Source of the DNA: Saururus chinensis
Lineage: Eukaryota; Streptophyta; Magnoliopsida; Piperales; Saururaceae
Length of the DNA: 64,000 nucleotides
NCBI GenBank assembly: GCA_035235625.1
Contig: CP141144.1
Location: 46,870,014-46,934,013, forward strand
Direction of reading: 5' to 3'
The notes below the pieces were generated by a model, which searched no databases, had not been told where the DNA came from, and saw only the letters and a program-made list of their open reading frames with translations. This document shows, in pieces, positions 20,489-58,823 of the stretch (position 1 is the first letter of the stretch; the number at the start of each line of letters is the position of its first letter). Made by a program: the position numbers and the translations under genes.

Positions 20489-20590
20489 CTGTTGCCGTTT
20501 TCGTACAATGAGACTCAGATGAAACATACAGATTATTCTTAATTCTATTGTATGTGTACTCACAGAATAGCAATTGATCACATGAAGTAC
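20489..20590 (-). other. Intron of the acyltransferase pseudogene
   Basis: On the minus strand the donor is CAG|GTACTTC and the acceptor CAACAG|GTGACC. It is at the single conserved intron position of HCT genes, before the VTxFKCGG segment. Both splice sites look intact. Confidence 0.8.
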
Positions 20591-23462: not shown

Positions 23463-24399
23463 TGAGTTGGCATACGTTAGAATACAAATACAACAATGTT
23501 AGGCACCAAGATTACTCAAAAGTAGCTCGAGCACCAAGAACTATCATTGTAGATTACAAAAATTTTCATAATCATGTAAGAAAACAAGTAAAGTTTTCTA
23601 CTAATGGTGAGCTCCCAACAAAAGAAAACATTTAAAAGCAAGGAGACAACTTATGTAAATTCTTATACATTTCCACACTACATAACCTTACAGAATGCAC
23701 ATGATTAACAAAACTTACTAAACAAAGTCTTGACACACAAAATTTGATAACTGAAAGCATAATTCATTTATTAATTGAACTAAGAATCATATGCCATAGA
23801 AAATATTCTTAAAGATATCATGTGCTCTGGCTGCAGTGAAAATGGCTAATGGCAAGCTTCCATCGCCTGCTAGGAAGCAGAAAAGCCTGGCCCTCCTAGG
23901 CCAACGTGCCACGACCCATGAATACCAGCGGCCCACACCAGAAATCGGTCTCGTGAGCCACCATCCTCAACCAGCTTACCACATGCCACTTACCACCTGC
24001 AACACCCTGAACAAGTACGGTCCATGCCTTAAAGGCCGCTAGGTTTGGCTGCAATGCCGTGAATTGTGGGTTACCAATGAAGCCGGGGGAAGTTGTTGTC
24101 GGAACCGCGCCCGGCCGTCCACTTGAATGTAAAGTTTGCCATCTTTGTGGATCCAGTCTTAAGTTTTTCTCTCTCTATTTTCTTCATGATGTGGCAGCCT
24201 TGGTTGGACAGCATGCCATAGTCACGAAACTAGGCAAGTCCCATTTGTTTCCCGGTGCATTTGCCCTGAGACAGTCTGGTTGCATTGTAGAGGTCTTAAG
24301 GAACTCCGTTGTAGGGGGTTTTGATTGAAATGCATCTTATGGGTGGTGGTTCCTCTTAACCATTGTAGTTGCTGGAGGTGCATGATATTTCCAGAAGCT

Positions 24400-25149: not shown

Positions 25150-25370
25150 ATAAATTAAAGAGGAGAGCATTTTATATGCTCTCCACTTTTTATATGCCCA
25201 ACTTAAAAAATGCAAGAGAAGTATTATAAGATCAATAATACAGACACTAGTACACATGAGTGTCAATATTACTAGCACTAGCGTATATGTCATCGATCTT
25301 AAATATTAATATTTTTTATATATTCTTTATATTAGGCTCATAAAAAATAAAAAATATAAAAATTACTTTC
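25150..25370. mobile_element. MITE-like insertion 3 in acyltransferase copy 2
   Basis: It begins near GGAGAGCATTTTATATGCTC, resembling the start of insertion 2, and ends near TATATTAGGCTCATAAAA, resembling the end of insertion 1. It interrupts the exon 1/intron border region of copy 2. Boundaries are approximate. Confidence 0.5.
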
Positions 25371-25619
25371 TTGGAAGAGCAAGTAAGAAGAGATGTCCTG
25401 AGTCAGTTCAGCCTGTGGCACAAACTGCATGAGCTTCTCAAATGGAGCAAAATCACCAAAACTCGTCAATGGCAGCCTCAGCTTCGGCCATCACAAAGAA
25501 TGCGCCTCTCCATTGCAGTCAAGTCGAGGGCCGAGTGCTACAGCCTCTTGGGTGTATAACAGCTTGCTGGTCGTACTACAAATGATTCCAACACCCTTAT
25601 CTCCATCGCCTTGAGGCTG

Positions 25620-28449: not shown

Positions 28450-29690
28450 ATGGCTCGAGGCAAGCAAGCTGCCACAGCCCCAGAAAGTCAGCCCGAGAAA
28501 GAGGTTCTCACCTCTATGAACAATCCCAAATTAGCGCTTGAACCCAACGGCAAGTTAACGATGGCACAACTCATGGCCGAGATCAAGGCTCTGAGTGTGG
28601 GAGTAGCAATGATCGATGCATTGGGATTGGCCGTAGCCCAGCTTCAGGCAGAGCGCGCACCCCTCTTATGTCCAAGCCGCCAGCCTCCATGGAGAAGGGG
28701 GGTCCATCCTAGGCTCCCGAACCTCTCCGCTCTGACTTCCCAGCACCTGCAAACCGTGAGATGCGCTTTGCCCAGGATGGTGTGCGCTTTGGCACTGTTG
28801 ACCAGGCCATGGATGGGAGGCGCCAGGCCTGGGATTCGCGAGGCACACCAGGTGTTCGGGAAAATGTCCTAATGGTGCCGCCTCCCCGAACTTGTACTAG
28901 GAGATGGAGGATGACTGGGAGGAGTACCCAGGACACCGCAAAGCACCCCGGGGTGGGGCGAAACCCCGCTTGGCCCGCCTACAGTTCCCACATTATAATG
29001 GGGATGACGACCCTGTGGAGTAGCTGTACAAGGCAGAGAAGTTTTTCGCCTACCAGGAGACACAGTCGGAGGCTGAACGACTGCGCATAGCGGCTTTCCA
29101 CCTCGACGGGGATGCATCGGTGTGGTTTCAGAGCTTTGAGAAGGAGGTGAGCTACCCCACTTGGACTGCCTTCTCAGATGAATTGTGCATCCAGTTCGGC
29201 CCTAATGAGTTCCAAGACTTCAATGAAATGCTTTCCTCCCTGCGCCAAACATCCACCATGCGAGCATACTACACAGAGTTCATGAAGGTGGCTAACCGCC
29301 TTCCCGATTGGTCGATGGCCGCCTTGGTGGGCACGTTCAAATGAGGGCTCAAACCAGAGATTTCTGAGGAGATGTGCCATTTTCCCTGTTCCAGCATGCG
29401 GGATGTCGTGCGTCATGCACGCATTGAGGAAGAGAAATTGGCTAGACAGAGGCATGGGGGCAGGCTCGGACCCTTTCCTCGGGCTACTATGCTTGCCTCC
29501 CCTCTTGCCGCTCCAACCAGCAGCTCAGGGGCTGGCCACGCTGGCCAAGCACCCCCTCAGATCGGCCCAATTGTCTGCCGTCTCACTCCGGCGCAGATGG
29601 AGGAATGCCGTTCAAAAGGGCTTTGTTTTTGCTGCGATGAGAAGTTCGTTCTGGCGCACTGTTGTTCTATCAAAGGCAGTCTATTAGTGG
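28450..29690 (+). pseudogene. gag region of the Reina-like element
   Basis: It begins ATG at 28450 (MARGKQAATAPESQ). The retrotransposon gag domain follows at about 29040-29440, with DASVWFQSFEKE and YYTEFMKVANRLPDW as landmarks. The CCHC zinc knuckle is at about 29620-29665 (GLCFCCDEKFVLAHCC), spaced as in related elements. Frameshifts lie around 28680-29000 and a TGA is at about 29342. It would encode the particle-forming structural protein. Not intact. Confidence 0.85.
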
Positions 29691-30290
29691 AGGAGATCGA
29701 TGAGGAGGCAGAGGTGACGGATGGGCTTGATTCTTCGTACCCTGCCGATACACTATCGGAGATTTCTGTGCATGCTTTTTTAGGGGCTTTCACTCCACGC
29801 ACCATGCGAGTACAGGGTTACCTCAAGCGACAACAGGTTGCTATTCTGATTGACAGCGGGTTGACTCACAACTTTATCAACGACAAGGTGGCTCAACGAC
29901 TAGGCTACTTTGTGTCTGACTCGACACCCTTTGACATCTTGATTGGGGATGGTAAGCACCTCCGCAGCTCTGGGGTGTGTACCCAGGCCACATTCTCCAT
30001 TCAGGGCCATACATTCGTGACCGACCTATTCTTGCTTCCGACGAAGGGGGCAGACGTGGTGTTAGGGGTGCAGTGGCTCCAAGAGCTTGGGGACGTTCCC
30101 TAGAACTTCAAGGACCTGGTAATGGATTTTGCAATGAACGGACAGCGGGTGCACCTCCAAGGCTCTCAGCCGGGCACTCTCCTTTCTGCTCAGGCAACAG
30201 GGTCCTTATTCCAATTCGCATTACAGGGACTACTTCTCCAGCAGCGGGCCTTGGTAGACATTGTGCAGGATGACTTGCCGTAGGATATTC
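29691..30290 (+). pseudogene. Aspartic protease region of the Reina-like element
   Basis: The active-site motif reads LIDSGLTHNF, a DSG form of the D(S/T)G motif, near 29850. A long open frame (29372-30103) joins the end of gag to protease. It is cut by TAG at 30101 where relatives have a Trp before NFKDL, and by another TAG at 30281. Confidence 0.8.
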
Positions 30291-31310
30291 TAGACCTCTT
30301 GGTAGAGTATGGTAACGTGTTCGCTAAACCACAGGGCCTTCCTCCGATGCGGGCACATGACCATTCTATCCCGATCATCCCAGGTGCTTCTCCAGCCAAT
30401 GTCCGTCCCTATCGCTATCCATACATTCAGAAGACTGAGATCGAGTGTTTGGTGGCAGACATGCTTCATTCTGGTATCATTCGGCCTAGCACGAGCTCAT
30501 TTTCTTCCCCAGTGTTGCTGGTCCGTAAGAAGGAAGGTACTTGGCGCTTTTGTGTTGATTACCGGGCGCTGAATGCTATCACAGTGAAGGACAAATATCC
30601 TATACCGGTGGTGGAGGAACTGTTGGACTAGCTGTCTGGTGCTACCGTATTCAATAAACTTGACCTTCGTTCAGGTTATCATCAGATCCGTATGCAGCCC
30701 ACCGATGCGCACAAGACCGCCTTCCGCACTCATGATGGTCATTTCGAGTTCCTGGTTATGCCGTTCAGCCTCACGAACGCGCCCTCTACATTTCAGAGTC
30801 TTATGAATGACCTCTTCTGGCCCTTCCTCCGATGCTTCATATTGGTGTTCTTCGATGATATCCTTGTCTACAGCAAGTCGTGGGGCAACCACTTGAAGCA
30901 TCTCCGGTCTGTCTTTGATATCCTGCAAGCTAATTCATTGTTTCTTAAACGCTTGAAGTGTTCGTTTGGCAGCCCACAGGTGGAATACTTGGGTCATATT
31001 ATCTCTCGTGACGGTGTGGCTACCGACCCCTCTAAGGTGACCGCCATACTGTCCTGGTCGTCTCCTTCTTGCGCCCGGGCACTGCGAGGCTTCCTTGGCT
31101 TGACTGGCCATTATCAACGCTTTATTCACTGCTATGGCGAGATTGCTCGCCCCCTTACTCAGTTGTTACAAAAAGGCGCCTTTCGTTGGTTGAACACTGC
31201 CTAGGCATCCTTTGAGGAGTTGAAGCAAGCTATGGCGACCGCCCCTGTTTTGATTCTTCCTGATTTCAGCTAGCCATTTGTGGTTGAGACCGATGCTTTG
31301 GATGCCGGCT
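30291..31310 (+). pseudogene. Reverse transcriptase of the Reina-like element
   Basis: Landmarks are the open stretch SSFSSPVLLVRKKEGTWRFC (fingers), [15 protein letters not shown], the catalytic FFDDILVYS (a variant of YxDD), and [10 protein letters not shown] followed by the thumb/connection. Stops TAG occur at 30629, 31202 and 31271. The RNase H domain that should follow is absent: after ETDALDAG, at about 31310, the sequence jumps straight to the region before the integrase zinc finger, so an internal deletion removed it. Confidence 0.9.
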
Positions 31311-32425
31311 TGGGGGCCTGAGGTTGCCGACCTACGTCAGCGTATCATAGCTCACTTCCATGCCTCTCCCTTGGCGGGTCATGAAGGTGCCCTTCGCACC
31401 TATAAATGGGTCAGCCAGAGCTTCTTGTGGCAGGGCTTACGTCGCGCGGTGACTGCTTATGTGGCCGCTTGTGATGTCTGTCAGCGTGCCAAATCCGCCA
31501 CCACCTCTCCTGCTGGGTTACTTCAGCCATTGCCCATTCCAGATAAGGTTTGGGGCGATGTTTCTATGGACTTTGTAGAGGCCTTGCCATTGGTCCAAGG
31601 CAAGTCGGTGATCATGGTGGTAGTGGATCGCCTGTCCAAATATGCCCATTTCAGTGTTCTGGGTCATCCCTACACCGCCAAGTCTATGGCGGAACTATAT
31701 GTTCGAGAGGTGGCCAAATTATACGGTATGCCTCACACTATCGTCTCTGACCGTGACAAGATTTTTATCTCTCAGTTTTGGCAAGAGTTCTTCACTCTAT
31801 AGGGCACATCTTTGCACATGAGTACCGCCTATCATCCACAAACTGATGGGCAAACTGCGGTCATCAACCACTATTTGGAGCAGTACCTGTGCTGTTTTAC
31901 TATGTCTCAGCCCCGTCGTTGGCTTCAACTCCTTCCATGGGCCGAGTGGTCTTATAATACTGCTTATCACACTTGTGCCGGGTTTACACCTTTTGAGGTA
32001 CTATATGGGCGGCCGCCCCCTACCGTGCTCTCTTATGTTCCCCATCGGTCCTTAGTTGCTGAGGTTGACTACATGCTCCAGACTCGAGATGATGTTGTTC
32101 GCCAGCTTAAGGCGAACCTGTCTGAGGCTCAGAACAGAATGAAGCAGATTTATGATAGCCATCACACAGAGCATGAGTTTGTCGTGGGAGACTTGGTTTA
32201 TGTCTCTGTTCTACCTCAGCACCAGACCTCCTTGTTTCAGCCTGAGCACTCTAAGCTTGCCCCTCGATTTCATGGTCCATATGTTGTCGAAGAGCATGTT
32301 GGATCGGTTGCTATCGCCTCACTCTTCCGCCGGGTTCGATGGTCCATCCTATTTTTCATGTTTCCTAGTTGCGCCGTTGCATGGGTGACCCTTCCCTGGC
32401 TGTGGATGCTCCACCTCTTCCATTG
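31311..32425 (+). pseudogene. Integrase of the Reina-like element
   Basis: The N-terminal HHCC zinc-binding domain is present (HFHASPLAGHEG ... CDVCQRAK). The catalytic core has the first Asp in VSMDFVEALP, the second in VSDRDKIFIS and the Glu in HPQTDGQTAVINHYLEQYL. A TAG at 31800 splits the core, and a frameshift lies near 32300. It would insert the element cDNA into chromatin. Confidence 0.9.
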
Positions 32426-32965: not shown

Positions 32966-35009
32966 GGGGGATATGTCCATGATGAAGATATTGATGAAAA
33001 TGAGGCTAATGAAGGTGAAGATAATATTGACAAAGTGGAGAAGATTCAAACATGAATGCAGAAGGGGTTAGAGGTGAAGAAAGCGCTCAACAGATGGTTG
33101 ACGGCGATGGGGATGATGTGGTAGGCAATGCTATTGCTGCAAATGATATAAATGTAGATGATGAAGAGTCATTGTACTATGAAGTGGAGCCACCTTATGC
33201 ACCCATCACAGATGAGGAGATAGATGCAACAATTAATTCTACAATAGATATGGACTAACAAAACGAAGATGAGTTATATGTTGGCCGCATCTTTAAGAAT
33301 AAAGAAACATTTGTTACAGCCTTGCAGAAGTTTTCCATTCAAAATCATGTCAAATACAAGGTTGTACAAACAAATTTGTCAGAGTATATAGTGAAGTTCA
33401 TTGATAGCACTTGCCCTTGGAGAGTGCATGGCTCAATAAAAATGGGTGGTGGGTACTTTAAATTGAAGACGTACAAAGGTGGCCACACATGTCGGAATGC
33501 CTAGCTTAGCACACATCATAGGCAGTGCAATGCTTCCTTTATTTCGAAGGTCATAATGCCCGCTAACCAAGCCGAATTAACTCTCACCCTAGGGGATATT
33601 ATTCAAAGAATGAATGAGAAGTATCATGTTGACATATCTTATAAGAAAGCATGGGCAGCAAGGAATATGGCGATCAAGGCTATTTATGGAGATTGGGTAG
33701 AATCATATAAATTGTTGCCAATGTACCTAAGGGTAGTGCAAGAAGCGAATCCTAACACCTACTACCGCTTAGAGGATGATGAAGTACATCGTGCAGATGG
33801 TGGCATATGTAGGAGATTTAAGCGATTGTTTTGGGCATTTGGGCCATCTATAGCAGGGTTTCGACATTGCATCCCTATGATTGGTGTTGATGCTACTCAC
33901 TTGTATGGCAAATACCCTGGTGCTCTTATGGCTGCAACGGTTACAGATGAAAACAATGGGTTATTTCCTCTTGCATTCGGGCTTGTCGGGAAGAAAGATG
34001 GAGACAATTGGAAATGGTTTCTAATGGAACTGCGGGATCATGTACTGTTGGGCATGATGAACATCGTCATTATTTTAGATCAACATAAGGGGCTTTAGAA
34101 GGCCGTGCCTGAGGTTCTTCCTGAACCTCTGTACCACCATCGTTATTGCATTCGTCACATAAAAGCAAATTTTAAGGAGTTCAAAAATAATACACTGATG
34201 GACTTGATTGGGGCAGCAGCTTGTGCACTTACAGTAGAAAAGTTTGATGCTAAAATGAACTTGATTAGTCAAGAGAGTCCTAGGGCAAAACATCTCCTCT
34301 TAGGAGGAGAATTGCATCTTGCACAGTGGTTCTTTGCCCACGGTGGTTTTATGACATTTGGCATGACAACTACAAATATGGCTGAAAGTTTAAATAGCGT
34401 CTTGAAGGGGGCACAAGGATTACCCATGCAGGCTTTAGTGTCGGCTATCTTTTATTGGCTCATAATTTTTTTTAAAACGATCTTCTGCTGCCACTGTCAT
34501 GGCCACCCCGTATACTCCCAGAGTGGAAGCGATATTGAGAGAGCAAACAAGAAAAATTGGGGAGTATATAGTTAATAGGATCAACAGGGGTCAGTACGAA
34601 GTGACATCAATTCGTGCCCAAAAGGTTATGGTAAATGTTGCGATGCATACGTACATGCAACATCCCTCAGGTTTATGGTTATCCTTGCTCTCACCTTATT
34701 GTCGTGTGGGCAAAGCAGCGGGAGCCAATCCAGTCATCACTATTTTACACATCTTCTACTTATAAAAATGAGTACTCCACAGAATTTTATTCTCCTCGTG
34801 GTTGGGAGTATTGGGAGAGGGATATACCTTTTGTGTTATACTCTTCGATAGCAACAAGGCAACCCGGTTGCCCACGGTCTGTTGACATTAGGAATACAAT
34901 GGACCGTAGAACTATGGAGAGAGATGGTAGAGGAGGATATAAATGCGGGAGGTGTAAACAAAGTGGGCATAATAGTGAATCATGTAGAAACCCTCATGTT
35001 GATTGGTAA
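32966..35009 (+). pseudogene. MULE 1 transposase gene, main part (MURA-like)
   Basis: An acidic linker is followed by the MuDR DNA-binding domain (GRIFKNKETFVTALQKFSIQ ... STCPWRVHGS, 33270-33500), then the catalytic domain: IGVDATHLYGKYPG (first Asp, about 33880), IVIILDQHKGL (second Asp), a CIRHIKANF segment, and NMAESLNSVLKG. A SWIM-type zinc finger near 34660 (GYPCSHL) and a CCHC knuckle near 34935-34990 (YKCGRCKQSGHNSESC) complete it. Stops and frameshifts are at 33257, 33502, 34096 and near 34450. Family knowledge: this enzyme cuts and pastes MULE elements. It is inactive here. Confidence 0.9.
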
Positions 35010-44397: not shown

Positions 44398-46198
44398 GTC
44401 ACCTCACTTTTATGGGGAAGATACATGTTGTACCCATGCACCTACATGAGCTAACTCACACGCGTGCGCGCCATCACTGTTGCCATTCTTTTGGCTTGGC
44501 TCGGTCAGTTCGCAAGTGTAGCCGGCCAAGCCAGGTTGGGTCAACAAGATAATTATTTTTAGGATAAATTCATTTGATTTTCTTTTAACCCAAAATGGGT
44601 CCAGCTTTCTTTTCACCCAAATGTATCCATTAATGGGTGGACACATCCGTTTGAATAGGATGAGTTGTCTTCAATGAGATTTCTTATAAAACACTAAAAA
44701 AATATTTTTTTGCATTATCCTTTACTAGGTTAGGGCTTTTAATATTACTCTTTCTACCAAAAATTAGAGTTGCTTAAGGAACCTTAAGATTGAGTAAAAA
44801 CTATAAGCATAGCTTTGTTTAGCCTTTGTTGGAGCCTATAGCTAGAGAATATTTAGACTTGCCTGGTTAACTGAGTTAGGAAGCATCACTAGGTAGTTAA
44901 TTGGATGGCGAGAATCTTATTAAATATCCTAAATATATGAGGATTAGTAAATATAGGCTAAAAGCGGGTGAGTGGTAGCTTATCACTATTAAGTTGATAC
45001 TCTTTTGCTTTGTTGTACTCTTTTATTAGGATTTTACCTTAAGATGTCATGTTAAATGAGGGCATGGAAGTGATGAATCAAGTGATGTTGGTTAAATAAT
45101 AATAATTATTTCTGGATGTAGTAATTACAACCTCTCACATAAACAATCCACTTACTGGATTTACTACATGTGAAGAAGCTAATTGTCAAAATTGTGATAT
45201 TTTTCATAATCTATAACTACAATATTTGCTTTAGCATGCCTATTACTTTCATCAATCTAATTTGATTGCTTAAAGAACTTCTACCCTTGAGTCTCTATAT
45301 CACATAGATATGATTATTCATTGTATATTACCATGCCTAGAAAAGTATTTTCTCAAATGTATAAAGCCTTATAACTGTTTTGGCCATTAATTGTATGTTT
45401 GTTTTCATGAATGAGTATTAACATCCACTAATAACTGTGAAATATAACTGATATGGTTATCTTTGATTATGTAGAAAGGTTTACATTGCAATATGATGCA
45501 AGTTGCAAAGAGTTACTTTTTAATTATTCTCAAGTTTTCTTGCTTGCACACATTATATTTCAAAGATGTAGCAAAATCAAAATTCCGGTTCATAAATCAA
45601 ATTTTGTTGTGTTTCCTTGTTAAGGTTGATGATTGGACACACAATGCTTGGGCTTGAAGTTAGGTGAGGAGTTATAGTACTCTCTTGGTGCTAACCTTGA
45701 GGTCATGATTGGGAGGCGAACCTTTGGGTGATACGTACATCTCAATTACTGTCTGGTCAGTTTTTATAATCCATTGTTTTTTGTTATGCCTCAAAGCAAG
45801 AACTCAAAGTACGCCTAGATTAAAACTTCATGACTTTTTTGAACTACATGAATATCTGTATCGGTTTTATTGATAGGTAGGGAGTTGCTATCACTTATAT
45901 CTTTTGCTTTTAGCTTTTAACCCAATATTATCACAAAATGCTTCTTTTATTTTTTGTATAAACCTCAAAGTGCCTCTACTAGTTCAATTATTTCATGCTT
46001 TTGCTATGTAAATGTTCTTGGTATTAGTGATTACTATTACCACCATCCAAATTTATATGGGTTGATAATTAAGTTTGTTGACTTACAATACTATCTTTCC
46101 TAAAAATTGTAATGATTTTAACCTTTAGTCTTGTTGACCACCATTAAAAGTGCTGCATTTGGTAGTGTGCTCTCCCTATCCTATTTCAATGAGCCTAA
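44398..46198. other. AT-rich sequence between solo LTR E and the large MULE
   Basis: The first 200 bp may continue the copia-like LTR. The remainder has no open frame of note and no recognised repeat. The stretch just before 46199 may be part of a host gene (intron) since an exon-like sequence follows on the other side of the MULE. Confidence 0.35.
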
Positions 46199-46207
46199 TT
46201 TTTCTCT
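46199..46207. repeat. 9-bp target site duplication of the large MULE, left copy
   Basis: TTTTTCTCT, identical to 58815-58823. Nine base pairs is the standard Mutator duplication length. Confidence 0.95.
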
Positions 46208-46280
46208 GAGTTTTTTCCATATTGTCTGTCTGAAGAATGAAATATTCGATATTCCTTCGATTTTAAACGGAAATGCCATA
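46208..46280 (+). repeat. Left terminal inverted repeat of the large MULE
   Basis: 73 bp, pairing with 58742-58814 at about 64 of 73 positions. The innermost 24 bp differ nowhere. Confidence 0.95.
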
Positions 46281-46496
46281 TGACTTGTTTATGGACCAAA
46301 ATGCCTTTAGGTTTCCACTATATTAGGTTTTAATATAGAGAGTAATAAATGAACAATGGAACAGTGTTGCACCGTTCCAGTGTGCTGGTAGTCATCGGCG
46401 GCGAATGGAACTCACCAGCGAGAGATGATCGGCGGTGACTCATCGGCAAGAGTCAATGAACAAGAAAAAAGTGTTTTTTAGCACTGCAGACACTGT

Positions 46497-49400
46497 GTGA
46501 GTGCTCCAAAGGATGCATTTCACATAAACAATCCTTCTTTCACACCGATCATGGATAGGATCGGTATTTGCATCCATTATAACGAAGAGGTAGGCAATGA
46601 TGGCTTGTATATTTGTGGAATGGCATGGTTGATGAACATTCATTCGTTGGTGAGCTTTGGTGAGATGCTGGGGCAAGTCAAGGCACGACTTTCCGTCAAT
46701 GGTAATGCTAGTTTGAAGTATTTAATTTCATCATCCCAATCATCCATGATATATAAATTACAAGATGATGAGGACCTTCAATCAATGTTCTCTATTCATA
46801 AGAAGGCGAATAAGGAGGTGCTATTGTTGTATGCCAACATGAAATAGCCCGACAACGGTAATAAATCACCATCACCCTCCTTAGAAAGGAACCAGACATT
46901 TAATAGAGCTGAATCACCCGTCGTAATGGCTCATCCCAGCTCTAATGTCGTATTTCATCCCAAATTCAATGAAACTCAATTCACCTTTAAAACTGCCATG
47001 TAACAATTAATCTTTTGATTATACACAATTGGAATATTTTGTGTACTCAAGACAACAATATTGAACATATCGTGTTAAGGTTAAATCATATCGTGTGAAG
47101 TAATAAACACGACGCGTAATAGATCGTATTAGTAATTACACGATATACACATGTGATATAGCAATAATGAGTTATAACGTAGATATAATAAGATGACATG
47201 TATTAATGTCATGGTTTCAATAACACATTTTGAAATGTAAGTGTCTTAACAGAATACATGATGTCGACTAATGTCACATTTTTTAACACAATAATGTGTA
47301 ATGTAGATTGGGAGATCCGGGAAACTTGCCCTCAACCAATCCATGTCAATCATCTTTCACCAATCCAATGAGTACAGAACCTGAAATAAAAGTCAATCAG
47401 AATAGATCAGAGGAATGGTCGCCAATGATGGGTGGGACAAGGACTTCATTTGATAACTACAAACCTCCATATAGCCCTTGTAATTACAACGGTGGACAAG
47501 GCGAAGAAGTTGAAAATATGTAGGGTGAGGATCTGTGGTACGATAATGATATAGTTGACATGGAAAGTATGTCCGACCATGAAGAATTTGGAAATAGCAA
47601 GGTTCCTAGTAACGTCGATGTTGAGGCGGAGGGATATTGGGATACAATCGATGATTTAAACATGTTGGAACCAAATATTGGTGAAAGCCAGTTAATGACG
47701 GGCAGTTTGCATGCTAAGGATTACCAGAAGCTCCTCGAATTGGGTGCACATTTTCTAAGCCTGTTGCATTTCAAAAGGGTCCTGATTGACTTAGCAATAA
47801 AGGCGAATTTCACATATCGTGTTGTGGATGAAAACCAGAATACGTACACCGCAAATTGCTCCAATAATTCTTGTAACTGGTACATAAGGGCTTCAAATAT
47901 AGGAGATATATGACTGTCACGAGATTAGTGCTGACTCATTCATGTGGAACCCAAAGGAAGTCAACTAACCATCCCCTAGCATCGCACCTGTGGATAGCGA
48001 GAAAATGTTATGGCCTCTTTAAAGACTCGGTGGACATTACACCTAAGAGCATAGCAAGTTATATATCCAAGCACTAGAGCATAATTGCCAACTACAAGAA
48101 ATGCTAGCGCACAGGTAATGCATGAGAAGAATCGAAGGGTTGATTTAGTGTCACGATATGTTAGTCTACCATGTTTTTGTTTACACGCTTAAACTATAGC
48201 TGAAATATGCACTCACATGACATACGTCAATATCGTGTTACCATAAACACGACTAGTCATCGTGTATGGATTCCAATCACACGTAAACATAAAATATCGT
48301 GCAATCAGGAACACTATGTAAGCCAGTGTCGTATAACATTTACTAAATTGTATTGGGTCGTGCAGGTAAAGCTCTGATTGATTTAATAGATGGTGACCCA
48401 GATGAATCCTACCGCTTACTTCCTGCTTATGGGAGGTAGATAGAATATATAAATCCGGGAAGTGTAGTTGTGCTAGTGAGATCATGTGATATTCCCGGCC
48501 CTATGGGTGGGTACGATTTCAAAAGAGTATTCTGGATGTTTGGCCCCATTGAGAGAGCTTTCCGAACAACCCTGAGGGCGTTGCTAACGGTTGATGCAAC
48601 TTTCTCGAAAGGAAAATATCCTAGACAGCTATTGATAGCAACTGCACTAGACTGGAACAATAATATGTTATGCGTTGCATTTGTAGTGGTTGATAACGAG
48701 TGTGAGAAAATTTGGTGTTGGTTTCTTGAGTTGCTTAGAAATCATCTATCTCTGATCCTCCAATCGAGTTGGATACAATTGTTTCTGATACACATAAGGG
48801 ATTGGCAAATGATATGACACACCATTTACACACCACAGATATTATATCCATCACATGGCAGCAAATATGCTGGACAGATTCAAGGACAACTACTTAATAA
48901 ATCAGCTCCATGTTGTAGTGGAAACGTTCAGATAGAATGTGTACGATGAAACAATGAACAACATTAAAGAACATAATCTAGAAGCATATGCTGCACTAAA
49001 TAAGATAGGTTCGGAGCACTGGGCCAGTGTATAAATCCTAGGTGAACTTGCCATATCACAAGGTACAATGCATTCATATAGCCATGTACATAGTGTGTGT
49101 TCGTTTATGCGTGAGGGCTTCATATCGTGTTAGTTTAAACACTTTAGTTTCATTCATCGTGTAAGTTAATACGATTTTGCTTAACGATCGTATGACACAT
49201 CGTGTAATCGTCATGAGAAAGTCGTTTATCGTGCACCCATACTCACGATCTTTTCTTCATAGGATGTGGTTAACCTAGTTGATTGTACCTGCACATGTGG
49301 AAGGTTTCAACATCTGGATCTACCATGTAAGCATGCAATCGCATCAATCAATAATAGACACTTCTACGTGTCTGAGTACTGCAAAAGATGGTACTTTATT

Positions 49401-49650
49401 AAAATGTATAAACTGACCTATCAAGAGCCCTTACACCCAATGAAGGATCGGCACCAATGGGCACCAGCTGGAGTTATGCCTACGTTCAGCCCACCTATCC
49501 CTCAAAAGTAGTGGAGGGTCTGTAAAAAATTCGGATAAGAGTCACAACCACCTCTCAAAGCTCCACAAAAATGTATAACATGCGATTAATTGGGTCATAA
49601 CTGCAAACGATGTACCACGCACAAGGGGGCCCCCCCAATGTGGCAGATGT
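46497..49650 (+). pseudogene. MURA-like transposase of the large MULE
   Basis: The exon pieces are: a PB1-like N-terminal domain (46497-46847: GICIHYNEEVGNDGLYICGM ... YKLQDDEDLQSM); an acidic linker (47308-47700); the MuDR DNA-binding domain (47700-47913: HFKRVLIDLAIKANFTYRVV, NSCNWYIRAS) and a decayed SIASYI part; the catalytic domain (48365-48830) with LLTVDATFSKGKYP (first Asp) and, in another frame, SDTHKGLAND (second Asp); and a SWIM zinc finger (49270-49380: CTCTCGRFQHLDLPCKHA) followed by a worn CCHC knuckle (CITCD...GHNCKRC, with a stop inside). Three introns (about 47005-47300, 48105-48360, 49060-49260) contain the TCGTGT motifs. Stops and frameshifts make it non-functional. Confidence 0.9.
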
Positions 49651-50129
49651 CCCATCAACAAGCCGAAGGAGGTCGAATAGTAGCGTACACGAATGGTGTA
49701 AGGAAGGGGAGCATCAATCGGGCTTACCTTTTCCACCCCCATTCTTCAGCTAAAAGTTTTTGTATATGCATCGTGTTATGAATAACATGAAATTGTAATT
49801 AACGTGTTCCTAAAAACACGACATGTTGTACATAGGGTACACTATATATGTGTATCGTGTAATCGACAACACGACCGAAAGGGTTTACGTGTTACTAATT
49901 ACATGATAATATATATCAATTATTAATTCTTATATCAAAGTGTCCTTTGCTTACACGATGTGAAAGTGTCTTTTGCTTACATGATATTGGTCATATCGTG
50001 TGTTCGAACCCATGATAATTTCATGTTCGTAATGTTCCAATTCCCGAGGTGTTATTCCAGAGGCATCAATGCTTTCAATAACTTGGCTATCTGTAACCGT
50101 CTCGCCCTGCCTACATATATATATATAGG

Positions 50130-50770
50130 ATTTGTAGAATGCTCACTCACTGGTTCTTCAAGGAGACAGGTCATTCGGAAGATTGCTTTGGCGGCGGCTG
50201 GTGAATCGGTCCGCCATCGGATATGGTCCTCACCTATATCCAACGACAAACTTGTTTCACTAGACAGTAATATATCAATGCCTCTAATGATCCGTCCAAT
50301 TTGCGCCTTATTCGATAGACTCTGATAGTGAATGTTTTTGCAGTATATTTGAGAAGATTTCAAGGAGATTGCTCGCAGTGATGTTCTTCACGAAGACGGG
50401 TCATTCGGGAGATTGCTTTAGTGGCAGCTGGTGAATCGGCCCTCTATCGGATACAGTCCTCACCTATATCCGATGGTGGACATGTTTCACTAGACGGCGA
50501 TATATCAATGTCTCTAATGATCCATCACATTCGTGCCTTATTCAATAGACTCCGATAGTGAATATTTTTTTGTTGTATATATGAGAAGATTTCAGGGAGA
50601 TAGCTCGCACAGTGATGTTCTTCGCGAAGACGGGTCATTCGGGAGATTGCTTTAGCAGTGGCTGGTGAATCGGTCCGCCATCGAATACGGTCCTCACCTA
50701 TATCTAATGGTGGGCAGTTTTACTAGAAGGTGATATAGCAATGTCCCTATTCTTGAAATGATGGGTCCAT
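50130..50770. repeat. Threefold tandem repeat of ~232 bp in the MULE
   Basis: The block TCATTCGGRAGATTGCTTT recurs at 50171, 50401 and 50635, followed each time by GGCTGGTGAATCGG, CTCACCTATATC and (first two) AATGATCCRTC. All units can be read as a related peptide (VIREIALxAAGES...) with stops. The repeat lies between the convergent transposase and protease genes, where 3' ends of both would fall. Confidence 0.88.
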
Positions 50771-52024
50771 GAATCTGCAAAGAGATCGCATGCCAACTGA
50801 TCACTAGCGACGAGACGGATTGTTATTTTCTTTGTTTTTTTAAGTTCTATAAAGATTAGTTTTTTGGATGTAATGAATTAATAACAGTTATATCTTTCTT
50901 CCCATTGAAAGTTGTCTTTCTCGTATATTGGATGTAATGATACTTGTTCAAGCGTGTATTCCTTAACACAATATGTTCGTATATCATGTTATCAACCACA
51001 CGACAATAATACACTCGCATTTTGTTTTCACAAGACTTTCGTAAATATCATGTTCACATGAACACGATGAGTTATCAGTCTGTTTTATGAGCTCACGACT
51101 ACGATAACGAATATTTATGCCAGATGTGTAATCAATTACATGATATTGGTTATGTCCAGCGATGGAACACACAAATATTGCATTAATTTAAACATCCAAT
51201 TCCCAAAGCGTCACCTCAATTTCTGGGATTTCAATTAAATTAGAATCACAAATTCAAGAGAAGTCATTTCAAATTTCCAATTACACTATATATGGAATAA
51301 TTTCCATATATATTGAACAGTTTGTATCCCTCGCATCCTTCCTATATATATCAAAGTGACCTCTGGGCTAACCCAATTCATGAAATGCACGAGATGGAGC
51401 CTTTGGGACATTGATATAGTGCCAGATGGTAATTTGTCCCCTTCAGTGGCATGGTCCTAACCAGCCACTAAAGGGGGCAATTTACTACCCGGCGTTATTT
51501 TAATGTTGCAAATGTTCCATCACAATTGAAATTTAAAGGAAAATATTAATATTATGACCTGTCGCTTTCACGACATATAGGTCATCAACATCCTCTGAAG
51601 TGGTCGTCCCGAAACATATTTGGTTTCGGTTAACATTTGAAACTTTCCTTTGACCATCCTCATTCAAGAACGTTCGGTCATCGGTTATGATCAATGAGTT
51701 GCATCTTTTCCATTTGTTTGATTACACGACATCAAAGACGTCCTAATACAAGATGTCTTGTAAATGATAACACGACCTAATACGAGGTGGCGTGTATGCG
51801 ATAACACGACATAATAATCAATTGTGAGAACTATAATACAATTAGATATATGTGTACTCATGTTTTGCGCTATCAAATACACGATATTGGTGCAAATCGT
51901 TTGATTGATTATACGTCATCTGACATTGGTACATGTATTTCTATTACAATAGTTAATTACAAAATAATTGGTCAAACATTGAATCTGTCAGTTAATCAAA
52001 GCATGAAAGAAGTCTATTTTCTTT
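50771..52024. other. Intergenic region between transposase and antisense gene of the MULE
   Basis: No coding domain is seen. It holds two motif clusters (50950-51165, 51715-51920) and otherwise AT-rich sequence. The 3' ends and polyadenylation signals of the two convergent genes should lie here or in the triplicated repeat. Confidence 0.6.
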
Positions 52025-52615
52025 TTACAATTCATCTATTTCCGGATCAAATTCTTCTTCGATTTGGACCTGAAGTATAGCAGCGTAGATCATCGGCTTG
52101 ACCATGCCTGTTATCTCGAGTTGTTTAAAATCTGTCAAAATGACTCCCCCTGCCAGTTTCGCTACGTAGTACATGACAAACAAACCGCAATCTTCATTTA
52201 TTTCCTGGTACATGCATTTGTTGATCTTAGTCATTGGCCACAGCCGAGTGCCCTTTATCTTAAGTACCTTCTCCATTCCATTGGCAACATGTTTCCTGAC
52301 ACTGTCTACCTTGGCGAAGTGGTGATTGTGTTCACCCTTTAGAGGATTGTACCACCTAAATCACTTCTCCCTGCAGTGGACAATAAGCAAGAGAAAGTGG
52401 CCCTTGACGTAGATAGGAATGAAACCGCTCTTCGTGTTAACATTCAGGCCTCTCAACAATATGCCAGTGAGTTTGCCCTCCTTCTCCACTAGCCCTGCCT
52501 CCATGCCAATGCTAAAGTAGTGCTGAATAGCGAACTTGCCAAAAAAATAGTTGGGGAACCTACCTAGATTTCTCAAATTTTGTTCATCAAGAAGTTGGAA
52601 GAAGACATTGATGAC
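52025..52615 (-). pseudogene. Ulp1-like (C48) cysteine protease domain, last exon of the antisense gene
   Basis: Ulp1/SENP proteases cut SUMO or related proteins. After the acceptor TGTGTAG at 52616-52622 the exon reads VINVFFQLLDEQNLRNLGRF and NYFFGKFAIQHYF, then the catalytic His region IYVKGHFLLLIVH, a stop, a WYNPL segment where the family has YDS/NSL, and the catalytic Cys region NEDCGLFVMYYVAKLAGG. The acidic tail ends at 52025. His and Cys are kept; the middle catalytic Asp seems to be Asn. One in-frame stop (about 52358) breaks it. The orientation is opposite to the transposase. Confidence 0.88.
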
Positions 52616-52917
52616 CTACACAAAACCATACATGTTAGTAATGACACAATAGTCGACCGATCGTGACATTGTTTACATGATAAGTGATTATATCGAATTA
52701 CTGATAACACGACACATTTACAAGTCGTGTATGAATTAACATGCTAATTTTACTTCAGCAATTATAGTCGATATGTAGCATATGAGGAAAACAATGATAT
52801 GAACCTTGGTTGTATAATCGATAAAACGATAATTAATTGTAATATGCATCAGTTATTCAATCGTTTGATTGATAACATGATAGATGTTAACACGTATGAG
52901 AGATGAAATGATATTAC
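52616..52917 (-). other. Intron of the antisense gene with a motif cluster
   Basis: On minus the donor is AATGAG|GTAATAT and the acceptor TTGTGTAG|GTCATC. The coding sequence reads smoothly across it (CITNE to VINVFF). The interior carries TCGTGT-type motifs from 52640 to 52900, an unusual content for an intron. Confidence 0.75.
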
Positions 52918-53945
52918 CTCATTGGTTATGCATTCCTGCTTTAACAAAGATAGGTAGTCGATGTAGAGGAGTGTCTCTATGGGTCACAACTTGTACGGGT
53001 TTGACATAAATTCGGTGATAATGTTCTTATATGCCTCCTTCTAAACCTCCATGTGGAACACAACTCTATGTCAACATAGTCATTTGGCGGTAGACTGTGC
53101 TCCTCCTTATTTATTTTAGTCGCAGTCTCATCTTCTACATCTACAACATTGTGGATACCCTCCATTACTTCTACATTTATTGGAGGAGTATCCAAAAAAG
53201 TGCCTTCATTGGAAGCTGCGATTGAGGCTACTAGTTCTAGGGTGGGAGACTTTGGATGTGCCGGAAGAATAATGCTCGGGCCAGAGACCGATGCCAAAGG
53301 TACTTCGTCTCCAGGCCTTTGAGGCTGGGCAATGTGTCCAACCTTTGCTAACTTCTCATCAATGTAGCTGCTAAAACACTTCAGCTTCTTCAAGCCCTGA
53401 GCTGAGACTTTCTTAAGAGGCTCCTCACCTTCTGCAGGTTGTTCAACTGTGGTGTACCTCAACTTCCATGGCACAAGAGGTAAGAAGGGAGCATCAGGAG
53501 CAGCTTTCCACTTCAATTTGAGTTTTATTGCTTGTTTGGGGACTGCTCCTTGATTTGCTTCCTGAGCTGCTTCCAGTCCCTCCAAGGGTTGTTCTGTCGG
53601 TCCCTCATGAGGTTGTTCCGTCAGTCCCTCATGAGGTTGTTCCGTCCCATAGCAGACTTGAGCCATGAGCTCCTGGGGATGGTCTCGTTCCTCTACCTCC
53701 TAGGGTTGTTGTTCAACATCCTAGGGTTGTTCTTCCACCTCCTGGGGTGGTTCCATGACATCCTGTGGTTGTTCCACGACCTCCCATGGTTGTTCCATGA
53801 ATTCTACATTTATTTTCGTCAAAAATCTAGTTATTAGTGTCCTTTGCAACTTCGGACCAATCTTCTTCTTCTGTTTGGTGGCAACTTGCAGTTGTCGTTT
53901 CTCTATATTTAAGAAGTCAACCATCATTTTTGTAAACACACGATA
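52918..53945 (-). pseudogene. Middle exon of the antisense gene, with EQP-type repeats
   Basis: Reading on minus: a lysine-rich start (QVATKQKKKIGPKLQRT), then a low-complexity part with repeated EQPxE units (EQPWEVVEQPQDVMEPP; later EQPHEGLTEQPHEGPTEQP), a basic stretch AIKLKLKWKAAP, a linker with proline and glutamate, then YNDYVDIE-like and, in another frame, TLLYIDYLSLLKQECITNE that joins to the protease exon. Stops interrupt the repeat region twice (about 53700 and 53722). The repeat-rich linker is probably disordered. Confidence 0.75.
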
Positions 53946-54149
53946 TGCATGTTAGTTGTCTTTTACCAAACACGATGAAACTACATATCGTATTGTTGAA
54001 AAAACGAAAATAGGACTCGTGCTCGTGATCACACGACCATGACAATACCAAAATCGCCTTTCTTAATAAACAACATGATCCCCCTATCGTGTACTCGACT
54101 ATACGAAGATCCCCTTACAAAACACGATACATTAAAATATCATACTTAC

Positions 54150-54975
54150 TCAAAATGAATCCCTCTTCCACCGGCTAAGGGACATGTAATGATTGTTCTT
54201 CGGGGGTAGATGGTTGGCGTGCTTCTCTGGATTTTGAAGCTCTTGCCTTTAAATGAACCAAAGATGATCCTTCGGTTCTTGGATGAGGGGTTGATGCTTG
54301 GGCGACCTCCGGCTGAGTGGGTTCAGGCGGCTGTACTGTCTCCGGTTCTTCGGGGGGTTGCATCTATTCTATGAGGCTAGTTGCCACCTCGAGTTCATTC
54401 TTAACACGCTGGAGTGCAGCTTCAACTCACTCCATGTTCCATCCCCGCTCACCGTAGAGAGTAGCCTTCTCTAAAACAACTTCACAAATTCCTATTATGA
54501 CATTAACTAGCACAACAAATGATTCAATGACATCATGGCCGGAATGTACATGCCCCGATGTCTCGCCGTGGAGGGCGTGGCCGGGTCTCATTGGTCGGAA
54601 AGTATGCATACCAGCCTTCTTAGCTTTCGGGGTCGCCCTTTGGACATCTATGAAGTGCGCCTTTTTGGGAATTGGTGTGATGCGCATAACAATTTCAGAG
54701 TTTGGCTTCAGACTCATAAAGACATCCTCGTACCACTTCCTTATCCGGTGATGAGTTAGAATCTTCTTCCACCCCTTTTCATCGGCCGGGTCAAGTTTAT
54801 CGGCCTTCTCCACTTCGCTCAAAAGTTGCATAAATCTGGGCCACCTCCTGCACCTCAAGCTGCATAGAGGACCACTGGGAGCCCATATGGACGTATGCTC
54901 TAAAACCACACCTGGTGGACAATACATAAGAATATAGTCATTAGTGCAAATGGTCAGTATCTTCATTATAACAAA
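54150..54975 (-). pseudogene. Exons of unknown domain in the antisense gene
   Basis: Two open parts lie on minus: 54427-54966 (SEVEKADKLDPADEKGWKKI, HRIRKWYEDVFM, IPIPKKAHFIDVQ-like) and 54175-54363 (proline/glutamate-rich QPPEEPETVQPPEPTQPE). A splice donor GAGTAAGTATG at about 54141-54150 ends the exon. In related plant Ulp1-type transposon proteins this position holds a poorly conserved spacer between the N-terminal domain and the protease. No specific function is assigned. Confidence 0.65.
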
Positions 54976-55239
54976 CTAGTCGTGTTACGGATAACATGCT
55001 TTCAGCCCCATCATGTTTTTGATAACATGATACATTCCAATCATCTAATATCCTATCCACGATATAATACTTAGTCGTGTTATTGAGAACACAATATGTC
55101 TACGTGCATGTTATATGTCGTATGTCTGATAACACGATTTAGTTCATATTGTGTGACCGATACGGCGATATTCATCTGCCTATAAACATATCGTGTCATT
55201 AGCGATACGATATTAGAATTCGCATGGTATAACACATAC

Positions 55240-55751
55240 GAGCCTTACCTGGAGCACTAATGAAGCCTCAACGAGAATTCCAGCCTATCTACTCATGATG
55301 TTCCTGTGGGCTGCCGATATGCTTCTCATCAGCATATCATGTACGACGCCTACCTAATTGTAGCTCCCCACGACAGGAATGACATTTAAGTAATCATACA
55401 AAGCTAGGGATACGGCTCTATTGCCCTATGTGAACAACACAAGGACACTCATGTGCACAATCGCCGACCATGCTAAGTCCTCGTCTAAAACAGTCCTTGT
55501 TTCGTTAGCCACTTCTTTCAACATTTCTTCAAGTTTTGCCTTCTCCGGCCGCTTCTCTTAGACAAACTTCTTATAGAATTGCCCCTTGCCTTGGGCAGCC
55601 TTCCCCTCGCTACTTTCCAATTTACATGGGTTCCCTTTTCCACTAAAACCCATGATCATAGCCACTTCATCCACAGTAAGGGGTAGACTTTTGCCCCTTA
55701 TGTTGAAGACCTCCAGTGAGTCGTCCCAACAATCACCAATGAGTACATCCA
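55240..55751 (-). pseudogene. DUF1985/PMD-like domain of the antisense gene, 3' half
   Basis: On minus: DSLEVFNIRGKSLPLTVDEV, AMIMGFSGKGNPC, then, after frameshifts and stops, LAWSAIVHMSVLVLF, ALYDYLNVIPVVGSYN and VHDMLMRSISAAHRN. This order (a WxxxxxxxxIxGKxLxLTxxEVxxIMG block, then a YNW-type block) is the N-terminal region of plant Ulp1-containing transposon proteins, related to DUF1985 and to plant mobile domains. The solo LTR F breaks it at 55752; the 5' half is at 57741-57960. Confidence 0.75.
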
Positions 55752-57740
55752 TGTAACGACCTAACCTGAGCCAGGCCCACAAAATCACTAATAGAAAATT
55801 TGATCTTTCCTTAAGCCAGGAATCATCATCTGTGTGTGAGAGGTACAACATTCGTCTATGCACTACGGAGCTTCAAGGATTCCCCATTTATAGACTTAGG
55901 TTATAATGGACACATACACACAACGAAGCTTCATAGTTTGTCTCATGTGAAATAGAATAAAACATATATGTATAATTAATTTGGATGGGGCCAGTGTTGC
56001 CTTGCCATTGGTTGCCTACGTACATATTGGATATTATTCCAATACGATCAGATCCGAAAGTAGTTCTGCCTAACGGCTATTACATACATCAAGCAGCACA
56101 AAATCATATACATTAAAATATGTATATATTGATATTTAATCAAAATCATACTGAAACTTGTAATCTATTGGAGTCAAGAAGAAGTTAATAAGTCAACGAA
56201 ATCGTACATCTCGCTATACCACAGAGCTAGATCAAAATCACATACACACGTCTCGCTCTATCACTGAGCCAAGACCGAACACACGCACACACGTCTTGCT
56301 CTACCCTAGAGCAAGACAAAACATAAACATGTCACTTCAAAGCATAGTAGATTGGAGCACAAAGGATCATGACATAGCATACATCCTAATTTAGCACATG
56401 CAGCTCTATAATTTAAATAGGAGGACAAAAATATTTACTCCCCTAATGTCTCTAAGGTAACGGTATTCGGAGTTGCTCATTCCTTCTGGGCGTCCTCCCC
56501 TTAGGATCCAAAGGCAGTAGACGGAGCTTCCTCTAGCCTCCATACATTCCTCATCTTGCACTGAAAGACTACGTACAAATGTTCTCCTTGCCGGAGACTC
56601 TTCTTGTTTTCCACACCAGTGGGCGATGGACAGAACCTCCCCTACTCGGGGATGTTCCTCACATATCGTGGCTCTTCAGTTGAAGACAGAGCCTCCCCTA
56701 CTCTAGATTGCTTCTCTTGTTGTGGCCCGGCAACTTCGAATAGAACCTCGTCTTACTTCTGTCTCCTTTTTCTTTCTCATGTGGTTAAGGACGATAGGCA
56801 GGGCTTCTCCTCGGCTTAGGGAATTTCCTCCTCATATGATCACCAACTTAGAGAACGGACCCTCCATTGCGAAGAGCACGCTCAAATTAGTCAAGAACGC
56901 CTCTTGAATGGACTAAATCGGAGCAAAGATGCTTAGAAACATAGGTAGAGAAGTTTGTCGGTGCTCGAGGACAACGGGCACGACCTCTCCTTCTCTTGGG
57001 GTGTTTCCTCCTTATACTGTCTCCAACTCGAAGAAAAGACCACTCCATTGCATAAAGCACACTTGATTTACTTAAGAATGCCTCTTGAACGGCCTTAATC
57101 GACTCAAAACGCTCAGAAAAGAGGAGAAAGAAGTTTTGATTGAAAAACTAGCTGAAATGGGGTATTTATATAGCCCCCGAGCAGCTGAAACCACGGTGCC
57201 GCATAGCCAAAAACGGCGGTGCAGCTGGTTTCGGGCGGCGCACCCACGGCGATCACTAAAATGCATGGCGCACTGCAGCACCCACCATTTTTGCCGCACA
57301 CGTGCAGTGCAATGCCAGCGCATGCAGCGATTGCACGGCGCAGTCACGCATGCTGCACTCACATCATGCGCGCACCTCTCTTTTTTTATTATTTTTATAC
57401 TCAAAACTTCAAACGCGCGTAACTTCCTACCCCGGATTCTGATTTGCGCGTTCTTGGTACTGTTGGACTCGTATCGACGAACCCTTCGATAAAACCCACT
57501 TAAAGCAGTATATCATACTCTTTATAAGTGGGTCCCGCCTATTTTACACACTTCTCAAGGTTGTAACTTTTGATCCCGACTTCCATTTTGCACGTTCTTT
57601 GTATCGTTAAGCTCGTTATTTCAAGCTCTACTCATATACAGAGGTTTCAACCTTTAAAATTCTCTAAAACTCAATGAAAGGTTATCTAATTACCTCTAAC
57701 CCCGTAGGTTAAATGTGATTAGAAAAAATAGGGTGTTACA
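55752..57740 (-). mobile_element. Solo LTR F inside the antisense MULE gene, TSD ATCCA
   Basis: It starts TGTAACGACCTAACC and ends GGGTGTTACA. ATCCA flanks it at 55747-55751 and 57741-57745. It is colinear with solo LTR E over its length. Minus orientation: a TATA-like TATATAAATA on minus at about 57164-57173 precedes the presumed leader. It lacks the TCGTGT motif clusters of the MULE around it. Confidence 0.93.
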
Positions 57741-57965
57741 ATCCAACAGCGGCCTCGAGATGATGATGGGCTCGCAATCAGATACTGGGTACAACCCAGT
57801 CTCGACCAATATGGCCTTGCATCCCAAACGTGAATCTACAAAGTCTTTTGATAGACGTAATCCAGCAGGGAAACTATTTGTTCCCAGACCTGGTCTTCTC
57901 CCGTAGATTCTCTTCTTCAACCTTCACTGACTCCACCATTTGATGTAATATTCTAACTTTTACGT
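57741..57965 (-). pseudogene. DUF1985/PMD-like domain of the antisense gene, 5' half
   Basis: On minus, after the acceptor TTTTGTAG|ACGTAAAAG, it reads VRILHQMVESVKVEEENL and, in another frame, FVDSRLGCKAILVETGLYP, VSDCEPIIISRPLL, which continues directly into the WDDSLEVF part beyond the solo LTR. It marks an upstream exon of the antisense gene. Confidence 0.7.
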
Positions 57966-58255
57966 CTACAAAATTGGATAAATATATGTCAATCAATAAT
58001 AGGTCATGACCATAATCAATAGCCTCATCGATTCACATTATATAGCTAACTTGTATTTATACGGTAAGTATATTTATCGTGTGCTCGAACATATGCTACG
58101 AGGAAGTCGTATACACAATATCATAATGGTTGAGCATCGTCTTTCCAGTGTCTTATTGAACACACGATATATGACTCATCGTCTTTCTAACCCAACAATA
58201 GTCTGCTTTGACTGCCTATGTCGTGTGCTCTAATACACGCTAAATAAAAAATCAT

Positions 58256-58741
58256 GCATACAAATATATGAAATGCCTTACCATGAAACCATTGCTATTC
58301 TCCGAGCTGGATTAACCACTCGTTCAGCTGCTAGTTTTCTACTAAGTTTACTCCTTTACCTAGATCGCCACAAACCCAAACTGCCGCTATAAAGAAGAAC
58401 CACCTTGGGGCGTACAGTTTCAAAACTCAACTTCGCAAACTCTTTCCAAAACTCATTCTTCGCAAACTCGTTCTAGAACAAAAAACCTTGATCTTCCATG
58501 TCTGGTCGGATAGGTCACAAAATCTTCTCCCAGGCTGTTTAAACGGTGCTGAACCAGAGTACTTTGCAATCGAAATGGAGTTTTGAATTGGAACAGGGTT
58601 TTCAATCAGAGGAATCGCCAATAGCTGAAGTCGTATGCCAATGAATGTGATTTCCTAATGGTTTTACACGATATAAAACTCTACCTCTAGCCAGGGGTAT
58701 TTTAGTCTCAAATTTACCTTATATCGTGCTATTCCAGGTTT
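58256..58741 (-). other. Promoter/first-exon side of the antisense gene
   Basis: On minus, an open frame (58427-58621) reads MAIPLIENPVPIQNSISIAK without a known domain, followed by a possible donor TTTCATG|GTAAGG (about 58278-58284). A small duplication of TTCGCAAACTC/AAAACTCATTC words lies at 58430-58475. The start of transcription should lie between here and the right terminal repeat. Confidence 0.4.
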
Positions 58742-58814
58742 TATGGCATTTCCGTTTAAAATCCAAGGAATATGGAATATTTAATTCTTTGGCCAGGCAA
58801 AATCGAAAAAACTC
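58742..58814 (-). repeat. Right terminal inverted repeat of the large MULE
   Basis: It pairs with 46208-46280 and is followed by the 9-bp TTTTTCTCT at 58815-58823. Confidence 0.95.
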
Positions 58815-58823
58815 TTTTTCTCT

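Follow-up and report, generated by a model that had tools for sequence, protein, structure and literature searches.

VANDAL21 (Hiun) of Arabidopsis thaliana is a Mutator-like element (MULE) with an extra gene, the product of which, VANC21, has been shown both in vivo and in vitro to bind the motif YAGTATTAY in the element's non-coding DNA (PMC5735166). The VANC21 motifs reach a high density, lie in one orientation and are contained in tandem repeats, and VANC6 has motifs of its own, AGTTGTCC and AGTTGTAC (PMC5735166). According to a 2026 review, VANC genes carrying a Ulp1 domain are said to recognise non-coding motifs of their own group (PMC13317346). VANDALs have degenerate terminal inverted repeats (TIRs) (PMC10398659), and ULP domains have been reported in TIR-MULEs of melon (PMC13317346, PMC2528002). 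We analysed a 64,000-nucleotide stretch of the Saururus chinensis genome (the window; contig CP141144.1 of assembly GCA_035235625.1, positions 46,870,014 to 46,934,013), which contains a 12.6-kb TIR-MULE at positions 46208-58814. Its non-coding DNA harbours numerous palindromic dyads built from the hexamer TCGTGT/ACACGA. We consider these dyads, with a probability of roughly two in three (0.68), to be an array of cis targets spread through the element and bound by a protein that the element itself encodes, the likeliest candidate being the VANC-like, Ulp1/DUF1985-like product of its antisense gene.

The window contains 47 exact copies of TCGTGT/ACACGA, compared with a mean of 16.2 and a maximum of 27 in 100 dinucleotide shuffles. 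Forty of these copies fall within 46000-58735, where a first-order model expects 5.1 and where the hexamer is the top-scoring 6-mer. With segment borders set by eye, here and in the mismatch-tolerant dyad counts by segment, the density amounts to 7.27/kb in the non-coding DNA of the MULE (37 copies in 5,091 bp), 0.54/kb in its exons (3 in 5,521 bp, at 47817, 49687 and 52432) and 0.14/kb in the flank (7 in 51,375 bp). When the non-coding segments were dinucleotide-shuffled one by one, 1,000 rounds averaged 4.0 copies and never exceeded 12. A preceding sequence-only reading of the window had judged the density to be beyond chance, had suggested comparing exons, introns and flanks with shuffled sequence, and had described the motif as missing from the exons and from a later solo long terminal repeat (LTR) inside the element. 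The first statement is borne out by these counts, and equal densities were not seen. The absence from exons is nearly but not strictly correct, with 37 of the 40 copies being non-coding and three exonic, and the solo LTR is indeed devoid of exact copies over 1,995 bp (taken as 55751-57745 in the segment counts, slightly wider than the LTR proper in Table 1).

The real unit of the array is the dyad TCGTGT-N8-ACACGA, which forms part of a 24-base palindrome with the matrix consensus TATCGTGTtATcgATaACACGATA. When every spacer from 0 to 40 was scanned with up to two mismatches across the 12 positions, head-to-head pairs with a spacer of 8 occurred 31 times in the element, and each of the other 40 spacers occurred 0-8 times. 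The 51-kb flank contained a single spacer-8 dyad at the same stringency, and non-coding DNA shuffled segment by segment gave a mean of 0.30 and a maximum of 6 (1,000 shuffles). Tail-to-tail pairs with spacers of 11-12 (9 and 17 pairs) and direct pairs with spacers of 25-26 (17 and 26) were also raised, as dyads 31-32 bp apart would make them. Allowing three mismatches, we counted 42 dyads in the non-coding DNA, one in an exon, one in the LTR and 14 in the flank.

Scanning the window with a palindromic position matrix at a threshold of 7 bits identified 55 sites inside the element and 15 beyond it; raising the threshold to 14 bits left 39 and a single site, respectively, the latter at 14059 (14.6 bits). 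The matrix was trained on the element, and its site counts as well as the phasing test on the 39 dyads are accordingly tied to that matrix; the spacer count, the segment counts, and the cross-half and matrix-free phasing tests are independent of it. In two reciprocal tests, a matrix built from either half of the element and applied to the other recovered 24 (4.12/kb) and 12 (2.50/kb) matches at 12 bits, with 0.019 and 0.039/kb in the flank. Two dyads are free of mismatches, TCGTGTAATCGACAACACGA (49855-49874) and the one at 48233. The small palindromes noted in the sequence-only reading, exemplified by TCGTGTAATCGACAACACGA, are thus real head-to-head pairs, but the description understated them: 30 of the 40 exact hexamers are halves of fixed-spacer dyads scoring 7 bits or higher, 26 when 14 bits are required, and 10 belong to neither class. 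Outside the element, four dyad-like sites spaced 51 bp apart (8.8-14.6 bits, including 14059) lie at 13957-14129 in what appears to be a tandem repeat.

Non-coding DNA holds every one of the 39 dyads of at least 14 bits (Table 1) and 30 of the 31 dyads with up to two mismatches, the exception being an exonic dyad at 49673 with two mismatches. The introns were inferred from reading frames and from GT/AG words chosen by eye, and the borders used to place the strong dyads differ by up to two bases from the listed coordinates. Each of the six inferred introns contains 2-6 of the strong dyads, and, as the sequence-only reading had stated for the motif, dyads were located in the introns of both genes, in the intergenic DNA and near the right end. 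Strong dyads (14 bits or more) are absent from the TIRs, from the 230-bp tandem repeats and from the 194-bp stretch that separates the transposase gene from the left TIR. Neither TIR contains a hexamer, and neither the TIRs nor the solo LTR contain a dyad with up to two mismatches; the LTR has one with three (56599).

Table 1. Features of the Saururus chinensis MULE and locations of its dyads (window positions; dyads of at least 14 bits)
Feature	Position	Strand	Remarks
Target site duplication, left	46199..46207		9 bp, TTTTTCTCT; perfect copy at 58815-58823
Left terminal inverted repeat	46208..46287	+	80 bp, 85% to the right one
Transposase gene, decayed	46482..49745	+	DBD_Tnp_Mut, MULE and SWIM domains; stops and frame changes
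Transposase intron 1 (inferred)	47000..47306	+	3 dyads: 47039, 47124, 47209
Transposase intron 2 (inferred)	48115..48365	+	3 dyads: 48169, 48233, 48297
Transposase intron 3 (inferred)	49063..49262	+	2 dyads: 49125, 49229
3' of transposase	49746..50119		5 dyads: 49771, 49802, 49855, 49887, 49996
230-bp tandem repeat	50153..50749		2.6 copies, between the two genes; no dyads
Intergenic dyad cluster A	50952..51143		4 dyads: 50952, 50984, 51048, 51124
Intergenic dyad cluster B	51710..51916		5 dyads: 51710, 51756, 51790, 51865, 51897
Antisense gene, decayed, VANC/KIU-like	52023..57945	-	Ulp1 (Peptidase_C48) domain in last exon
Antisense-gene intron 3 (inferred)	52616..52917	-	5 dyads: 52661, 52693, 52725, 52810, 52861
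Antisense-gene intron 2 (inferred)	53903..54149	-	3 dyads: 53924, 53988, 54087
Antisense-gene intron 1 (inferred)	54912..55248	-	6 dyads: 54980, 55011, 55075, 55118, 55149, 55191
Solo LTR, later, presumed	55752..57740		TG...CA ends; 5-bp duplication ATCCA at 55747-55751 and 57741-57745
Upstream of antisense gene	58077..58240		3 dyads: 58077, 58148, 58221
Right terminal inverted repeat	58735..58814	-	80 bp
Target site duplication, right	58815..58823		9 bp, perfect copy of TTTTTCTCT

This distribution bears on the idea that the transposase, or a cofactor of it, binds the dyads to achieve synapsis or to regulate itself, which would make them comparable to the internal or subterminal repeats of other DNA transposons. 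The element encodes a DBD_Tnp_Mut domain, and dyads occur in the transposase introns. However, a Mutator transposase is expected to act at the TIRs, and the empty TIRs weaken this explanation. In addition, about 830 bp separate the left end from the nearest strong dyad, and the antisense-gene introns contain 14 of the 39 strong dyads compared with 8 in the transposase introns. We consider a role in transposase binding unlikely.

Host transcription factors could also be envisaged to read the dyads, with the non-coding parts acting as enhancers or promoters. The CGTG core is reminiscent of NAC-type sites, and helically phased palindromes are generally typical of dimeric regulators. On the other hand, 39 strong sites spread over introns, intergenic and upstream DNA are many for such a role, none of them lies upstream of the transposase gene, and 12 bases separate CGT from ACG here instead of the 7 in the NAC palindrome, which makes recognition by a host factor rather improbable.

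The dyads are also regularly spaced with respect to each other. Among the 39 dyads, distances of up to 130 bp are most frequent at 31-32 bp (8 pairs), 64 bp (6) and 85 bp (4), and 52 sites of at least 9.5 bits show further classes at 42-43 bp (4) and 53 bp (3). The period that best fits the 39 dyads is 10.6 bp, with a p of 0.0002, the lowest value attainable with 5,000 jitters of position. A set of 41 centres defined independently of the matrix gave 10.65 bp as the best period, with a fit of 0.62. The matrix-free signal persisted when pairs 30-33 bp apart were dropped (p 0.0003, the floor of 3,000; fit 0.53), and also when those at 60-66 bp were removed in addition (p 0.0017; fit 0.45).

A tandem duplication of a unit of about 32 bp, with the dyads as a by-product devoid of binding function, would account for 31-32 bp being the commonest spacing, and the duplicates could be old and fully diverged. 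Tandem Repeats Finder indeed reported a short array in the clusters (34 bp, 2.3 copies, 51738-51816), but no second one of this kind there when run at score 30, and the linkers of the ten pairs 31-32 bp apart are, as judged by eye, mutually unlike. The unlike linkers and the single short array make selection on spacing likelier than recent duplication, and, with the helical period retained in the absence of the 30-33-bp pairs, we judged a duplicated 32-bp unit to be unlikely. The related proposal of RNA or DNA hairpins can be addressed by comparing the two arms of the 39 dyads. Their hexamers agree at 167 of 234 positions, compared with 169.2 when the right arms are re-dealt, and the whole 12-nt arms at 265 of 468 compared with 272.6. 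The lack of covariation suggests that each arm is constrained alone, as would be the case for protein half-sites and not for hairpins, and we dropped the hairpin reading. Overall, there is little to recommend an origin of the dyads without a binding protein. The earlier suggestion that the motif is a binding site agrees with the fixed-spacer palindrome, the helical phase, the absence of covariation and the virtual lack of sites in exons, TIRs, LTR and flanks, so that a putative protein-binding site is well supported by the sequence.

Among the 78 half-sites, 48 contain CG, 17 CA, 10 TG and 3 another dinucleotide at the CpG position. As 27 of the 30 changed CpGs have become TG or CA, past methylation of the dyad CpGs is suggested. 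The observed/expected ratio of CpG is 2.06 in the dyads, 0.89 in the rest of the element's non-coding DNA, 0.53 in the exons and 0.60 in the flank, and that of TpG outside the dyads is nearly equal throughout (1.18 in non-coding DNA, 1.25 in exons and 1.13 in the flank). This pattern fits non-coding DNA that was once relatively protected, then silenced and decayed; alternatively, codon use may lie behind the exon value, and TCATGT may be a tolerated variant. That the dyads instead recruit silencing, as a restraint imposed by the host or by the element on itself, is very improbable: a CpG in each half and the prevalence of TG and CA would be in line with it, but CpG is less depleted around the dyads than in exons and flank, for which past protection is the better fit, even if codon use confounds the exons and the small differences in TpG take some weight from this objection.

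The element contains two genes in convergent orientation. The transposase gene has four inferred exons (approximately 46482-46999, 47307-48114, 48366-49062 and 49263-49745), with Pfam matches to DBD_Tnp_Mut (1.6e-10), MULE (7.1e-8) and SWIM (5.7e-10), all above the cut-off. The antisense gene matches Peptidase_C48 with an E-value of 1.8e-8 (34.9 bits, cut-off 20.7) when one stop is read through. In a PDB search, its Ulp1 domain was aligned with SENP5 (1.1e-4), with the catalytic His, Gln and Cys in register and Asn at the position of the Asp. Exon 3 contains 21- and 24-bp coding tandem repeats (53574-53800) that give rise to repeated EQP-rich peptides, and exon 1 is interrupted by the solo LTR. 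The two pieces of exon 1 gave no Pfam match when searched apart, and DUF287 was not among the Pfam matches of the antisense gene. Because of the stops in both genes, this MULE copy is probably dead. TTTTTCTCT is pyrimidine-rich, which makes it weaker evidence for a target site duplication than a mixed 9-mer would be. Between the genes, minus-strand open frames in the 230-bp repeat region (50052-50387 and 50525-50719) share a similar peptide that had no Pfam match, and the repeat may represent a captured gene fragment. Another piece of a MULE transposase lies at 33505-34575 (Pfam MULE, 4.1e-10 on 33505-34098), with one weak dyad-like site nearby (35143, 9.1 bits).

Gene content and the VANC precedent suggest that the binding protein is encoded by the MULE itself. 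The element probably works like a VANC system, closest to the Ulp1-carrying type, although we do not class it as a VANDAL; it looks like a known kind of system with a new layout and geometry. Like VANDAL21, it combines a MULE and an extra gene with a dense short motif, which in VANDAL21 is mainly non-coding, introns included, and has a density unique to the family (PMC5735166). The tandem peptide repeats of exon 3 recall the variable part of VANC proteins, which often carries such repeats (PMC5735166). Unlike the VANDAL21 motif, which has no CpG, the target here is a CpG-bearing fixed-spacer palindrome, accompanied by a Ulp1 domain. VANDAL6 resembles our element in having its own short motif clustered in non-coding DNA, but the VANC6 motifs are not palindromes (PMC5735166). 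A Ulp1 domain antisense to a MULE transposase is shared with the KI-MULE/KAONASHI elements and their KIU genes (PMC13317346, PMC2528002). Those elements are described as non-TIR MULEs of A. thaliana, whereas TIRs are present here.

YAGTATTAY does not occur in the element and AGTTGTMC occurs once; as motifs vary by family, this scarcity speaks only against VANC21 and VANC6. VANC genes of eudicots reportedly encode DUF1985, DUF287 and Ulp1 domains, and their specificity is said to derive from motif sequence, density and helical periodicity, in which case phasing would be expected for a system of this kind. Maize En/Spm encodes TnpA, a protein linked with methylation loss that binds a repeated, CpG-containing motif in either orientation; its site clusters differ in being subterminal, and the superfamily and the protein are unrelated. 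Judged by title, searches of an open-licence library returned nothing on TCGTGT/ACACGA in transposons, and for VANDAL and VANC together with palindromes only PMC6446971 dealt with transposons.

In the mechanism that we propose for a target array read by an element-encoded protein, the half-site (TA)TCGTGT would be recognised by one protein molecule and TCGTGT-N8-ACACGA by a symmetric pair, presumably a dimer. Neighbouring pairs would mostly be whole helical turns apart, above all three turns, which would place them on the same face of the DNA and could permit cooperative binding. Specificity for the element would then arise from density and phasing and not from a single site. The bound protein might keep methylation off the non-coding regions, or strip it from them, thereby derepressing both genes.

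Several observations weigh against this proposal. Read as a single open frame, the Ulp1 domain scores 19.2 bits (E 0.0012), under the cut-off of 20.7, and DUF1985 in exon 1 of the antisense gene, searched with the exons joined, reaches an E-value of 0.091 and 13.2 bits against a cut-off of 35.1. No relative was returned at an E-value of 0.001 when the antisense gene and the transposase were used as protein queries. The phasing is imperfect, with off-period distances of 46, 51, 80, 99 and 109 bp among others and a fit that drops from 0.82 to 0.45 with the wider set and the main distance classes removed. In contrast to the palindromes with unlike linkers found here, the VANDAL21 motif has one orientation within tandem repeats, and it is repeated upstream of VANA21 (PMC5735166), whereas the DNA between the transposase gene and the left TIR is free of dyads here. 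VANDALs have degenerate TIRs (PMC10398659), unlike the 80-bp pair here. Finally, the proposal draws on the sequence of one, probably dead, MULE copy.

More tentatively, a VANC-type system in a TIR-MULE, outside the non-TIR VANDALs, with a dimeric, phased target and a CpG in every consensus half-site might act as a bistable epigenetic switch, in which CG methylation could block binding. The bound protein would hold the CpGs open; once it was lost, methylation would lock the sites and deamination would erase them. We regard this extension as speculative and on balance doubtful. If an element-encoded protein does read the array, VANC-type targeting rules (short motif, density and helical phase) would be legible from one element without experiment, and they would extend to a TIR-MULE whose target is palindromic. 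The fixed dyad is a ready probe for electrophoretic mobility shift assays or DNA affinity purification sequencing and a handle for finding cognate elements. With its two CpGs, the dyad also allows a direct test of methylation-gated binding, which the VANC21 motif, lacking an internal CpG, does not.

Elsewhere in the window, an HCT-like BAHD acyltransferase gene is located at 19607-20956, with further pieces near 23790-24066 and 25359-25523. The best 120 of the 664 matches to 19754-20956 have 39-48% identity, those named being from flowering plants; identity is at most 49% by tblastn and at most 54% over 352 tree columns. In a tree with 32 of the 120 listed relatives, hand-picked for spread, and with an unaligned insert cut from the window protein, the latter sits on a very long branch and its placement is not resolved. 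Pieces of Ty3/gypsy type with aspartyl protease, reverse transcriptase and integrase domains are found at 29345-31802.

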